Of a stretch of DNA of 64,000 nucleotides, positions 15,647 through 52,867 are shown piece by piece. Under the pieces are notes generated by a model. It was not told the DNA's origin. It made no database searches and saw only the letters and a list, made by a program, of their open reading frames with translations. The position numbers were made by a program, and so were the translations under genes. Source of the DNA: Flavobacterium sp. KACC 22763 (GTDB lineage: Bacteria > Bacteroidota > Bacteroidia > Flavobacteriales > Flavobacteriaceae); the NCBI RefSeq assembly GCF_028736155.1, contig NZ_CP117879.1, positions 2,232,001 to 2,296,000 of the forward strand. The letters are read 5' to 3'. Position 1 is the first letter of the stretch, and each line of letters starts with the position of its first letter.

Positions 15647-15690
15647 TTTTTTTTTGCCACTAAGGCACAAAGACGCAAAGTTTTTAAATA

Positions 15691-15766
15691 TAGCCCGTGG
15701 TTTCAACCACGGGAAACGAATTGATATTACACATTATTACGTTCCCGTGGTTGAAACCACGGGCTA
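15691..15766. repeat. Double palindrome (inverted pair of self-complementary hairpins)
   Basis: A 25-nt unit at 15691-15715 reads CCCGTGGTTTCAACCACGGG in its core, self-complementary apart from the central TC. Its exact inverted copy is at 15742-15766 and the spacer is 26 nt. It lies between the convergent DUF4861 and LacI genes. GCAAAG-type words (15661-15680) precede it and another short palindrome, ACCTGACAGGT, follows at about 15800. Confidence 0.85.
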
Positions 15767-15825
15767 TGATATCAAACCATTTGTAATTGTGTAACAATAC
15801 CTGACAGGTATAATAATTATAAAGT

Positions 15826-31432: not shown

Positions 31433-31450
31433 TTTAGCACAATTAGTATT

Positions 31451-31646
31451 GAACACGGATGAAACGGATTCTTTTAAGTCACGCATAATTGGTTTCCCGC
31501 AGATTTAACAGATTGAGCAGATTGAATTAAAAATATTTTTTAATCTGCGGGAAAGAAAAAAATCTGTCAAATCTGCCAAATCTGCGAGAGAAAAAAAATC
31601 TGTGTAACAAGTACATTCGCAATAGCGAATCCGTAAAATCTGTGTC
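31451..31646. repeat. Nested inverted repeats, CGCAGATTT word family
   Basis: The outer arms are at 31451-31471 and 31625-31646 (GGATTC / GAATCC ends). Inside, TTTCCCGCAGATT (31493-31505) pairs with AATCTGCGGGAAA (31542-31554), followed by three more AATCTG words. A short hairpin ATTCGC-AATA-GCGAAT is at 31615-31630. It fills most of the SusD-GH88 gap. Confidence 0.8.
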
Positions 31647-31690
31647 TAACATTTTAGTATAGAAACTAAAAATAAAGATTAATTAGTAAT

Positions 31691-37371: not shown

Positions 37372-37401
37372 AAATTATTTTCACACAACGTTAATCTGTA
37401 G

Positions 37402-37465
37402 AGACGCACTGCAGTGCGTCTACGCAACGATGGTTACAATACGTTAGACGCACTGCAGTGCGTCT
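37402..37465. repeat. Double 20-bp palindrome
   Basis: AGACGCACTGCAGTGCGTCT is a perfect 20-bp palindrome, present at 37402-37421 and 37446-37465 with a 24-nt spacer. The flanks GTAGAG and CTCTAC complete the inverted pairing. Similar GTAGAGACGC...-type palindromes are repeated in many genomes. Confidence 0.9.
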
Positions 37466-37600
37466 CTACGGAAAATTGGATCGGAAATAAAATTATCTTG
37501 TCAAAACTGTTACCAATTCATTAACAAAAAACAGGTGCCAAATTATATGATTTTTCTTCATTATTAATTTACTTTGTAGTTAATCTAAAAATTGTAAACC

Positions 37601-40564: not shown

Positions 40565-41545
40565 TTATTTTGATGCTGCTATTGTAAGTGCTTCTGCTAC
40601 TGCATTCTCTCCAAGCGTTAGTTTAAAATTATTATCACCGAATCCCTTTGCACCTTTCATAGACAAATGGCCTGCTTGTTTAAATAGATCTTCTGAAATT
40701 GTTTTCCCTTTCAGGAATTTTTCTGTTTCTGTCAATCTCCAAGGTTTATGTGCCACACCGCCCATAGCCAATCTGACATCATTTATAGTATTATCTTTTA
40801 TATCTAAAGCCGCAGCAACAGATACCAATGCAAAAGCATAACTCGTCCTGTCACGAACTTTTAGATAATGAACATTTTTAGTAAAATTATTATCTGGAAT
40901 TTCAACAGCAGTGATCAATTCTCTACTGTCTAGCGTATTGTCTTTTTCAGGCGTATTTCCTGGAAGTCTATGAAAATCGGTGAAATCAATTTCTCGCTTT
41001 CCTTTTGGTCCTTCTACCAAAACCTTCGCGTCAAGTGCTGCCAAAGCCACACACATATCACTTGGGTGAACCGCAATGCAACTGTCCGAAGTTCCAAAAA
41101 CTGCTGCCATTCTATTAGAACCGCCAATCGCACCGCATCCACTTTTTGGAACACGTTTGTTGCAAGGCATATCGGTATTATAATAATAAGAACATCTTGT
41201 TTTCTGCAACATATTTCCTCCAACAGTTGCCATGTGCCTAATCTGTTGAGAAGCTCCAGCTGCTAAGGCTAATGCCAACAAAGGATATTTTTCTTTTATA
41301 GAAACATCTTCGGCAACCTGACTGTTTTTTGCCAAAGCACCAATCGAAACTTTTCCTTTTAAGAACTCTATTTTCTTTAAGTCTAATCCGTTAATGTCAA
41401 CCAATTTATCTGGAGCAACGATGTTCTTCTTCATTAAATCGACCAGATTCGTTCCTCCCGCAATAAACATAGAAGAATTATCTTTAGCTTTTCCCGTAAC
41501 TGCCGACGAAGAAGACAGCGCTTTAATTATCTGAAAGTTTTTCAT
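40565..41545 (-). CDS. FAD-binding subunit of the molybdenum hydroxylase (PaoB-like)
   Basis: 326 residues. The FAD-binding PCMH-type segment (FIAGGTNLVDLMKKNIVAPDKLVDI, LALAAGASQQIRHMATVGGNMLQ) and the CO-dehydrogenase flavoprotein C-terminal part (YAFALVSVAAALDI, RLAMGGVAHKPWR) are clear. It also has the cysteine-rich loop (TRCSYYYNTDMPCNKRVPKSGC) that binds an extra 4Fe-4S cluster in PaoB. Its ATG overlaps the stop of the 2Fe-2S gene by 4 bases (41542-41545), so the two are translationally coupled. Confidence 0.88.
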   Translation of the reverse strand: MKNFQIIKALSSSSAVTGKAKDNSSMFIAGGTNLVDLMKKNIVAPDKLVDINGLDLKKIEFLKGKVSIGALAKNSQVAEDVSIKEKYPLLALALAAGASQQIRHMATVGGNMLQKTRCSYYYNTDMPCNKRVPKSGCGAIGGSNRMAAVFGTSDSCIAVHPSDMCVALAALDAKVLVEGPKGKREIDFTDFHRLPGNTPEKDNTLDSRELITAVEIPDNNFTKNVHYLKVRDRTSYAFALVSVAAALDIKDNTINDVRLAMGGVAHKPWRLTETEKFLKGKTISEDLFKQAGHLSMKGAKGFGDNNFKLTLGENAVAEALTIAASK

Positions 41546-42180
41546 ATCTCCTTTCCTCCTTCCTTCACTTCAGTTATCGCGTCAACAATGTTATGATAAG
41601 CACCACATCTACAAATGTTACCGCTCATATATTCACTAATTTCTTCTCTACTATTGGCATGACCTTCTTTGATACAAGCAATTCCCGACATGATTTGTCC
41701 CGGTGTGCAATAGCCACACTGAAAACCGTCGTGTTTGATAAAAGCTTCCTGCATTGGGTGCAGTTTTTTTCCTTTCGAAAGTCCTTCGATTGTAGTGACT
41801 TGTGCGTTTTGCTGCATCGTTGCCAAAGACAGACACGACAAAATTCTGGTTCCATTTACGTGAACTGTACACGCACCACATTGTCCGTGATCGCAGCCTT
41901 TTTTAGTTCCTGTAAGCTGTAATTGTTCGCGAAGCAAATCCAATAAAGTTGTTCTTGGTTCAATATTAAGATTATGTTTTGTGCCATTTACTTCAATAGA
42001 AAGCGGTACTGTTTCTAAATATTCCGCTATTTTTTCATCCCATTTCTTATCTGAAGCCATAACCAATGAAGGTGGCGTCAGGGCAAGAGCGGTAAAAAGT
42101 CCTGATTTCTTTATAAAGTCACGACGGGAACTAGCATCTTCCGGTGTTACTTTATCCTGATTTGTTTTTTTAGAAGCCAT
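41542..42180 (-). CDS. 2Fe-2S subunit of the molybdenum hydroxylase with Tat signal (PaoA-like)
   Basis: 212 residues. The N-terminus SSRRDFIKKSG has the twin-arginine pattern, pointing to export to the periplasm as a folded cofactor complex. Two 2Fe-2S motifs follow: a plant-type ferredoxin set (CDHGQCGAC, with a later cysteine in RILSCLS) and the helical set (CGYCTPGQ, CRCGAYH). It passes electrons from Mo to FAD. First gene of the three; a minus-strand TAAATTTG at 42232-42225 could be its -7 element, with no clear -33. Confidence 0.88.
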   Translation of the reverse strand: MASKKTNQDKVTPEDASSRRDFIKKSGLFTALALTPPSLVMASDKKWDEKIAEYLETVPLSIEVNGTKHNLNIEPRTTLLDLLREQLQLTGTKKGCDHGQCGACTVHVNGTRILSCLSLATMQQNAQVTTIEGLSKGKKLHPMQEAFIKHDGFQCGYCTPGQIMSGIACIKEGHANSREEISEYMSGNICRCGAYHNIVDAITEVKEGGKEI

Positions 42181-42304
42181 TCAATCTATTTGTTAAATTA
42201 GCAAATTCGCTTTTGTCATTCTAACAAATTTAGCGATCTTATGTAAGAAAAAATTATAAAATTCAAACATTACTCTTATTTAGAATAATTTCAATTTTGT
42301 TTTT

Positions 42305-42533
42305 TTAACCGCAAAGGCGCAAAGGGTTTTCGCAAAGTTCGCTAAGTTATTTTTCTCTCGCAGATTTGGCAGATAATGCAGATTTTGAATACGATGAAAA
42401 GATTTACACAGATTCTTTATGATAGAAATAAATAAAAAATCTGTTTAAATCTGTAAAATCTGCGAGAAACAAAAAATTATACACATTAAAATTTTGCGTT
42501 CTTTGCGAAAACCCTTTGCGCCTTTACGGTTAA
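42305..42533. repeat. Outer GCAAAG-family inverted repeat of a nested pair
   Basis: The arms at 42305-42337 and 42501-42533 pair over 33 nt with one mismatch (left arm begins TTAACCGCAAAGGCG). The 163-bp interior holds a second, complete inverted repeat of another word family (42356-42467). Together they take up most of the 408-bp gap between the divergent Mo-enzyme and desulfurase genes. Confidence 0.9.
42356..42467. repeat. Inner CGCAGATTT-family inverted repeat
   Basis: TCTCGCAGATTTGGCAGAT (42356-42374) and ATCTGTAAAATCTGCGAGA (42449-42467) pair with two mismatches. It lies completely inside the outer repeat, as though inserted there. Confidence 0.88.
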
Positions 42534-42588
42534 TTCTTTCACGTAGATTAATTCTGAAATTGTATTTTTACTAAATTAAGTCCAAATT

Positions 42589-43740
42589 ATGCCACAACAA
42601 GAAATCATTTATCTTGATAACAATGCCACAACTCGTGTTGATGAAAGAGTTTTGAATGCGATGCTTCCGTATTTTACTGATTTTTATGCGAATTCAACGG
42701 GAACACATTTGGCGGGATTAACGGTAAAAGAAGCTGTTGAAAATGCTGCATGGCAAACGGCAGATTTAATAAATGCTGATGCAGATGAAATCGTATTTAC
42801 TTCGGGCGCAACTGAAGCTATAAATCTGGCCATAAAAGGTCTTGTTGATCAGGATCGAAAACATATCGTTACCATTCAAACTGAACATAAAACGGTTCTG
42901 GAAACCTGTCGATTTATGGAAAGTATTGGTTTTGAAGTGACTTATCTTCCAACTAATTCTGATGGACTTTTAAATCTTCAACTTTTAGAAGAAATAATTA
43001 CAGATAAAACACTGGTTTTCATTGGAATGCTTTCTAATAACGAAACGGGTGTCATACAAAATATCAGCTCAATTTCTAAAATATTGAAAGCCAAAAATGT
43101 GCTTTTTATGTGTGATGCAACTCAGGCTGTTGGTAAAATTTCTGTTGATGTAAAAAAACTCGGAATTGATCTTTTGACTTTATCTGCACATAAATTTTAT
43201 GGCCCAAAAGGAATTGGCGCTTTGTATATTTCGGCGAAAGCCAAAATAAAATTGTCTCCTCAAATTCTTGGAGGCGGACAACAAAGAAAATTACGAAGCG
43301 GAACGCTAAATGTTCCCGGAATTATCGGTTTAGGAAAAGCATGTGAAATAGCTGTAAATGAATTAGAAAAAGATCAAAATAGAGTTTCTCTATTACGAGA
43401 CAAACTTGAAAAAGGTTTATTACAGTTTGAAGGTTCTTTTGTAAATGGAAATACAGAAAACCGAATTTATAATACTTCAAACATTTGCTTTCCAAACGTA
43501 AATTCAGAACAGCTTATTCTCGCTTTAGGAAATATTTCTGTTTCCAACGGAGCTTCTTGCTCGGCAGTAACTTCTCAACCTTCTCATGTCTTAAAAGCAA
43601 TGGGATTATCTGATGAAGATGCTTTGAGTTCGGTTCGTTTTAGTTTGGGAAGATTTACTACTTCTGAGGAAATTGATATTGCTGTTAAGCGGGTTTTAGA
43701 ATTGGCTAGGCAGTTTGCCTCTAAGACACAAAGACTCTAA
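42589..43740 (+). CDS. Cysteine desulfurase (NifS/IscS family), probably for Mo-cofactor sulfuration
   Basis: 383 residues. PLP lysine K202 in LLTLSAHKFYGPKG, with YLDNNATT at the start and TEHKTVLE, CDATQAVGK as other PLP contacts; the active cysteine is C324 in NGASCSAV. It makes protein-bound sulfane sulfur from cysteine. Its place between the Mo hydroxylase and XdhC/MocA genes fits supply of the terminal sulfur on molybdenum, as NifS4 does for xanthine dehydrogenase in Rhodobacter. The C-terminal KTQRL is coded by the edge of a GCAAAG-type repeat. Confidence 0.86.
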   Translation: MPQQEIIYLDNNATTRVDERVLNAMLPYFTDFYANSTGTHLAGLTVKEAVENAAWQTADLINADADEIVFTSGATEAINLAIKGLVDQDRKHIVTIQTEHKTVLETCRFMESIGFEVTYLPTNSDGLLNLQLLEEIITDKTLVFIGMLSNNETGVIQNISSISKILKAKNVLFMCDATQAVGKISVDVKKLGIDLLTLSAHKFYGPKGIGALYISAKAKIKLSPQILGGGQQRKLRSGTLNVPGIIGLGKACEIAVNELEKDQNRVSLLRDKLEKGLLQFEGSFVNGNTENRIYNTSNICFPNVNSEQLILALGNISVSNGASCSAVTSQPSHVLKAMGLSDEDALSSVRFSLGRFTTSEEIDIAVKRVLELARQFASKTQRL

Positions 43741-43798
43741 GTTTTTTTCTTTATTTTTAATCTCGCAGAGTCACGGAGACGCAAAGATTTTATGAATT

Positions 43799-43917
43799 AC
43801 CTCCAGTTTTAACTGGAGGTATGATATTTAAATAGAATTAAGGCTTTAGCCAAACAAGTCTTAATTTGGCTAAAGCATTTTCTGTATGCTGTCTTTTTTC
43901 ATCCAGCTAAAGCTGGA
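43799..43917. repeat. Run of three hairpins after the desulfurase gene
   Basis: Three palindromes follow one another: ACCTCCAGTT-TT-AACTGGAGGT (43799-43820), GCTTTAGCCAAA with its complement (43843-43854, 43865-43876) and TCCAGCT-AA-AGCTGGA (43902-43917). The words CCAG and CTTTAGC recur between them. GCAAAG-type words lie on either side (43770-43790, 43980-44010). Confidence 0.8.
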
Positions 43918-52740: not shown

Positions 52741-52867
52741 AGACGCTGATTTTACGGATTCGCTATCGCGAAGACGCGGAAAAAAACGGATTTTTAAAAA
52801 AGGTAATTAAAAAAAATCAGTGTCAATCAGCGTTTTCGCGATAGCGAATCCGTTTTATCTGCGTTCT
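52741..52867. repeat. Inverted repeat with GGATTCGCTATCGCGAA core
   Basis: The left arm 52741-52772 and right arm 52835-52867 pair, with a 19-nt perfect core (52754-52772 with 52835-52853). CTGATTTTACGG words put it in the CGCAGATTT class, and a related GCGAATCCGT unit occurs at 31625. A hairpin GGCCACC/GGTGCC at about 52718-52735 and the ends AACACATAA/TCATGTGTT lie outside it. The 427-bp gap 52644-53070 is otherwise featureless apart from the next terminator. Confidence 0.85.

Follow-up and report, generated by a model that had tools for sequence, protein, structure and literature searches.

A dispersed hairpin, hereafter called A, probably settled in one intergenic gap of the Flavobacterium sp. 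KACC 22763 genome and was later entered by a different dispersed hairpin, hereafter called B, a reading to which we assign a probability of about 0.65. The gap lies in a stretch of 64,000 nucleotides (the window; 34.7% G+C), corresponding to positions 2,232,001-2,296,000 of a single 5,561,005-base contig. The nested inverted repeat found there was confirmed as a real, non-chance structure, and its parts and flanking genes are as follows.

41542..42180, - strand: left flanking gene, a [2Fe-2S] protein (Fer2, Fer2_2), from domain annotation
42181..42588, no strand: divergent intergenic gap of 408 bases with the nest, compared across 50 genomes
42305..42348, + strand: left arm of outer hairpin A, with CGCAAAG words, 44 nt at 89% against the right arm, from the sequence and an inverted-repeat search
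42356..42467, + strand: inner hairpin element B, with CGCAGATTT words, from the sequence and an inverted-repeat search
42390..42440, no strand: loop region of B, with one ACAGATT word and 98-100% identity in G109, G306 and G077
42490..42533, - strand: right arm of outer hairpin A, from the sequence and an inverted-repeat search
42589..43740, + strand: right flanking gene, a cysteine-desulfurase-like class V aminotransferase, from domain annotation

The outer repeat was borne out as initially annotated, with arms of 33 nt and one mismatch that can be read directly from positions 42305-42337 and 42501-42533. B does lie between these arms, as had been claimed, but the 19-nt arms ascribed to it are found only if mismatches are allowed. 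Its arms at 42347-42374 and 42449-42476 pair over 28 nt at 82%, and the perfect outer stem at 42356-42367 and 42456-42467 extends over 12 bp. Positions 42290-42550 were predicted to fold with an energy of -95 kcal/mol as RNA (z -11.3) and -64.4 kcal/mol as DNA (z -10.9), and in both cases none of 200 shuffled sequences was equally stable.

Several other identities for the structure were considered and rejected. The gap is divergent, and the sole terminator-like site detected in 41500-43800 by a scan for loops of 3-8 is intragenic (41749), which disfavors an intrinsic terminator. No Rfam family matched at its gathering score in the window, and the gap had no match at E <= 1e-5 among 50,697 phage and 72,556 plasmid records. 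A scan of viral_contigs with CGCAAAGNCGCAAAG was left unused as evidence because, with 14 fixed bases, chance matches are expected.

Both hairpins belong to repeats that are dispersed in the genome. A BLAST search of positions 42200-42650 against the source genome returned 55 matches, the query itself included, and the arms are therefore multi-copy. The double word of A, CGCAAAGNNCGCAAAG, occurs exactly 25+23 times and that of B, CGCAGATTTNGCAGAT, 24+22 times in the same genome, with no occurrence of the reversed control pattern in either case. By BLAST and by word counts alike, then, neither repeat is single-copy, the state that in the initial annotation would have spoken against insertion. 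Among 395 genomes of the phylum, CGCAAAGNNCGCAAAG was present in 109 and CGCAGATTTNGCAGAT in 31. A further search, in which no word was preset, looked for 6-mers repeated at a spacing of 8-10 and present again in inverted form within 260 nt; it gave 125 finds in 171 gaps of the window and of hit-centred stretches, versus 2-6 in five shuffles, and recovered CGCAAA/GCAAAG, CAGATT/GCAGAT, ACATAG, ACGAAT and other words.

The ends of B carry a further signature. Outside the B word stand three variable bases, and the full trio is complementary to that at the opposite end in 18 of 30 B elements, versus a mean of 7.8 and a maximum of 15 in 500 shuffles; orthologous copies from relatives are included in this count, which is hence not one of independent elements. 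The ends of A showed no such excess over shuffles (15 of 87; shuffled mean 10.2, maximum 19). A perfect palindrome, TCCCGATAGCTATCGGGA, was seen by eye to replace about 4-6 nt within A arms at several loci (L142, L143 and L147, the 43.7-kb gap in G109 and G306, and the 48.9-kb gap in G077), several times at the identical spot of the arm.

The history of the focal gap was examined in related species. Of 398 same-genus genomes, 53 carried a match to the right-hand gene at E <= 1e-150, and the gap was readable in 50 of these; L167, L168 and L201 were left out because no left-hand gene was detected in their stretches. Each gap was assigned by eye to one of five states (E, A, AB, AT and B). No element was present in 17 of the 50 gaps, which are 163-235 bases long and include that of G091 (L160), counted as empty with a possible remnant of A. 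A stood alone in 18 gaps, four of them with repeated A arms, and was accompanied by B in 10; in three gaps an A-type hairpin was combined with a third one made of ATATAAG words, and two gaps had B alone. Each repeat thus occurs without the other, and the constant pairing that had been named as evidence against insertion was not found. The initial annotation had also proposed a search of sister genomes for the outer repeat without the inner one, and the A-alone gaps are such cases (21 if those with the third hairpin are counted). A was also found within A at this site, with 2+2 left and right units in G183 (L183), 3+3 in G079 (L156) and 4+3 in G265 (L174). A inside B was not seen at the focal gap in any of the 50 genomes.

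A maximum likelihood tree of the two flanking genes, rooted at its midpoint, was used to order these states. The presence of A required three changes on the tree and that of B at least seven, and the five states together required 11 changes, versus a mean of 26 after shuffling, with none of 200 shuffles that low. A at the focal gap fits a single gain in the ancestry of a 33-species clade, followed by two losses, and 16 of the 17 empty gaps lie outside this A-bearing clade. B is found inside A in at least three lineages. The 12-species clade of the source genome contains eight species with A and B, three with A and the third hairpin and one with A alone. G323 has A with B and its sister G042 has A alone (support 100); likewise, G374 has A with B, and G230 and G340 have A alone (support 96). 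Because A fits one gain, whereas B requires at least seven changes and lies inside A in separate lineages, A came first and B later, repeatedly. B therefore entered A later and more than once, in an order that depends on the midpoint root: with this root only, the succession from empty gap to A to A with B rests on the outlying position of the empty gaps. One genome with A alone, G049, falls within a clade with A and B, so B or the whole element has also been lost or exchanged. The two gaps with B alone likewise speak against the preferred history. The earlier proposal that palindromes insert into one another is upheld by the 50 gaps and the tree insofar as one repeat came to lie in another; its further implication, a clean transposable-element insertion, is not.

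The junctions show what accompanied the gain of B. Where B is present, part of the interior or right arm of A is usually gone, and the position of B in A varies by lineage among G323, G374 and the source genome. By eye, B is placed in the right half of A in G323; in G374 it replaces the inner right arm of A and part of the outer right arm; and in the clade of the source genome the usual inner stem of A is absent. G049 and G077 have the left flank and the first A word in common and then diverge, as if one whole element had been exchanged for another. A search for clean insertions between relatives gave 33 candidates, of which many were tandem or end effects and none was a clear insertion of A or B with a target duplication. 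The empty sites are too diverged for target-site duplications to be compared, and pairwise comparison yielded no clear-cut example. Among the relatives compared, the closest of which are about 91% identical in nucleotides, no clean insertion could be matched to a known empty site; a further search found no closer relative. A clean mobile-element insertion with both repeats intact, as initially annotated, is not supported: part of A is missing beside B, the site of B varies, and no enzyme was tied to either repeat.

The same junctions suit an account without transposition, in which shared words let hairpins exchange their contents by ectopic gene conversion or template switching, and microhomology seeds new sites. 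Replacement in place of clean gain, the whole-element switch between G049 and G077 that begins in the first A word, the repeated A units in G183, G079 and G265, and a reversed loop at 52.7 kb all point in this direction. Reversal, exchange and replacement speak for template switching or gene conversion no less than for insertion. This account explains poorly, however, how hairpins reached gaps that lacked them (18.1, 29.7 and 37.4 kb) and how a triple A-type word came to be present in at least 12 phyla; it is possible, with the odds against it.

Arrival of B in an existing A, the reading that we prefer, was considered alongside other sites in the window, at three of which similar nesting had been noted. 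The claim was upheld at 31.45 kb, where B elements at positions 31433-31690 are enclosed by a shell of ACGGATT/TTCGC words; this shell can be recognised in each of the six relatives compared (86-91% identity over aligned nucleotides), and its contents vary. At 35.39 kb it was upheld only in part: a B element does lie beside CTAAG words, but their right-hand partner was not seen in the source genome; in G306 and G077 a TTAG-type right side surrounds other contents. The possible nest at 52.7 kb is a hairpin with TTCGCTATCGCGAA arms (52743-52864) and no second family in the source genome, and its arms were not found in G109 or G057. In G077, however, a B element lies inside its loop, and the loop is reversed relative to the source genome and G306, with 21 of 24 and 21 of 23 end bases matching the reverse complement. 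Self-complementarity values for this hairpin were set aside because they mixed both strands of the stem. A shell of GCTAAG-type words at 20.4 kb surrounds differing contents in five of the six relatives; in the sixth, G049, the right side consists of N. A GTAGAGACGCACTGCAGTGCGTC palindrome pair at 37372-37600 was present in the source genome, G109 and G057 and missing in G306, G049, G077 and G217. This pair and the elements at 18.1, 19.1 and 29.7 kb, each present in only some of the six relatives, favor the preferred reading.

Sequence identity across the nest is high. Its segments are 96-100% identical in G109, G306 and G077, versus 73-81% at fourfold sites of the flanking genes. Among 24 gaps comparable with G109, seven reach 89% identity or more, 11 do not exceed 51% and six fall between; other gaps in a shared state are about as conserved, and the identity of the nest is therefore not special. 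Judged from these alignments, it may reflect either constraint on gaps or the exchange of gap alleles. If homologous recombination had carried whole gap alleles, nest included, from species to species, few local events would be needed, and high identity in the nest beside low fourfold identity would follow; elements at 18.1, 19.1, 29.7 and 37.4 kb, whose presence and absence among the six relatives runs against the flanking-gene tree, also suit such exchange. The clustering of focal-gap states on the tree and the different places of B in A in G323, G374 and the source genome are evidence to the contrary, and we regard this explanation as rather unlikely. A role under selection, with the nest kept as a regulatory double hairpin or an insulator between the divergent genes, could likewise draw on the high identity of the nest relative to fourfold sites. 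It is harder to reconcile with the 17 gaps that have no element and with the equal conservation of other shared-state gaps, and it also conflicts with the distribution of inverted repeats by gap type. Among the gaps sampled from the source genome, 28 of 35 convergent ones had such a repeat, as did 84 of 152 codirectional and 18 of 43 divergent ones; the corresponding figures in G109 were 21 of 28, 59 of 120 and 9 of 34. They are thus rarest in divergent gaps, which makes the focal gap one of a less usual kind, and we consider selection for the nest quite improbable.

Nesting in itself had initially been taken as a sign of insertion. The sample for this comparison consisted of 20 spread stretches of the source genome and the window itself, with G109 treated separately. 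Inverted repeats numbered 170 in 230 gaps, versus 25 after shuffling. Nested pairs made up 6 of the 50 pairs found within one gap in the source genome (4.2 expected from random placement) and 8 of 34 in G109 (3.0 expected), or 14 of 84 versus 7.2 in these less biased samples pooled. A word-based count in the hit-centred sample was higher (6 of 12 pairs versus 1.8 expected), but it is biased, with three pairs coming from the focal gap, and the less biased sample is preferred. Nesting is therefore only mildly above random and a weaker sign of insertion than had been claimed, although a preference for hairpin loops as a landing place is possible. The case is carried by the sister genomes.

An enzyme that might move A or B was sought among Y1 transposases. 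Four genes for Y1 (RAYT-like) transposases (PF01797) are present in the genome (L222-L225); from motifs compared by eye, at least two of the proteins resemble subclass 1.2 and one subclass 2.6 as given in excerpts of PMC6006769. The palindromes near these genes belong to other families, for example CCACGGTTTCAACCGTGG and AACATCTTTAGATGTT. One of these, CCACGGTTTCAACCGTGG, also occurs in the window at 15647-15825. None of the four 3.3-kb stretches around the Y1 genes contained a double word of A or B, a weak test because only 3% of random stretches would contain one; single A or B words were present in three of the four, with a background of 72% of random stretches. No transposase could be tied to A or B in the four stretches examined, and a RAYT for these repeats may since have been lost from the genome.

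Several known systems resemble the nest in part. According to excerpts of PMC3116915 and PMC6006769, REPs and REPINs are, like A and B, short, palindromic, intergenic, dispersed and gene-free, they are likewise rare between divergent genes, and Y1 genes are present in the genome here as well. Relative to these excerpts, A and B differ in having arms made of repeated 8-9-nt words, in an element length of 80-300 nt and in having no linked transposase shown; a GTAG or CGTC tag at one end was not noticed in an unsystematic look at the copies. REPs or REP dimers that lie inside other palindromes are described in excerpts of PMC3733652, and there too a palindromic repeat sits within a longer palindrome of another family; the host palindrome of that system is fixed, whereas host and guest vary by species in A and B and the order of gain is visible. 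The idea that A and B are REP or REPIN elements moved by the genome's own Y1 transposases draws on that precedent and on the four PF01797 genes with palindromes around them, but those genes have palindromes from different families beside them, and in none of the four cases does a double word of A or B lie nearby; we consider it very unlikely. Insertion sequences that target REPs, reported in PMC1525189, similarly use palindromic repeats as landing places, but the incoming B is a gene-free hairpin and not an insertion sequence. MITEs are comparable in being gene-free with terminal inverted repeats, as A and B are, but A and B have neither a target-site duplication that could be shown, with empty sites too diverged, nor a known parent transposon. 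The small dispersed repeats of cyanobacteria that Elhai et al. are said to have described in 2008 are reportedly very short, gene-free and thought to be mobile, all of which recalls A and B; A and B are longer. We file the nest of A and B with small dispersed palindromic repeats, as a novel variant.

Words of the A type extend well beyond the genus. The triple word CGCAAAGNCGCAAAGNCGCAAAG was found in at least 117 stretches in genome_contigs; with 21 fixed bases, about 0.1 occurrences are expected in 257 Gb by our own estimate from base counts. Among 80 titles listed, many of them metagenome assemblies, at least 12 phyla could be assigned from the titles (Chloroflexota, Desulfobacterota, Pseudomonadota, Myxococcota, Cyanobacteria, Bacteroidota, Planctomycetota, Verrucomicrobiota, Acidobacteriota, Nitrospirota, Latescibacterota and Spirochaetota), a spread suggestive of an element class that reaches well past the genus. 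An inverted partner lay within 300 nt for 63 of the 117 matches listed, versus 45 of 585 random placements, and several cyanobacterial copies had no inverted partner within this distance. In a Verrucomicrobia sequence (L264:4411-4553) an A hairpin whose arms are 30 nt long encloses a different hairpin with arms of 26 nt, the same design as in the window. A Dolichospermum sequence (L268:5513-5940) contains six A triple words in a tandem array with 81-base spacing, for which an inverted partner was not found. A literature search, with subscription papers mostly outside it, found nothing on the A or B words or on a triple-word element class.

From these observations we infer that A and B, both non-coding and non-autonomous, belong to a larger set of word-arm hairpins spreading in the intergenic DNA of the genus. 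New copies might arrive as single-stranded foldback DNA or through copying at the replication fork, with an existing hairpin serving as a tolerated landing place. After arrival, shared arms would permit template switching, by which the interior could be swapped, trimmed or inverted. If an enzyme takes part, hairpins would be fitting substrates for a Y1 (HUH) nuclease, although no such nuclease was tied to A or B. More tentatively, and with the chances against it, these elements could form one class of gene-free foldback elements that occurs across bacterial phyla and grows by nesting, with arms in which an 8-9-nt word (CGCAAAG, GCAGATT, ACGAATT, ACATAG and others) stands two to four times and with existing hairpins as preferred landing pads. 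Intergenic regions would then resemble Russian dolls, their contents turning over species by species. At the focal site, related species with the outer repeat only, the inner only, both or neither indicate that such repeats pile up in one another over time. This one site, viewed in 50 species, provides a graded series of empty gap, A, A with B, A with another hairpin and A in A, and the spread of gene-free palindromic repeats, along with the attraction of further hairpins by their loops, therefore becomes testable.
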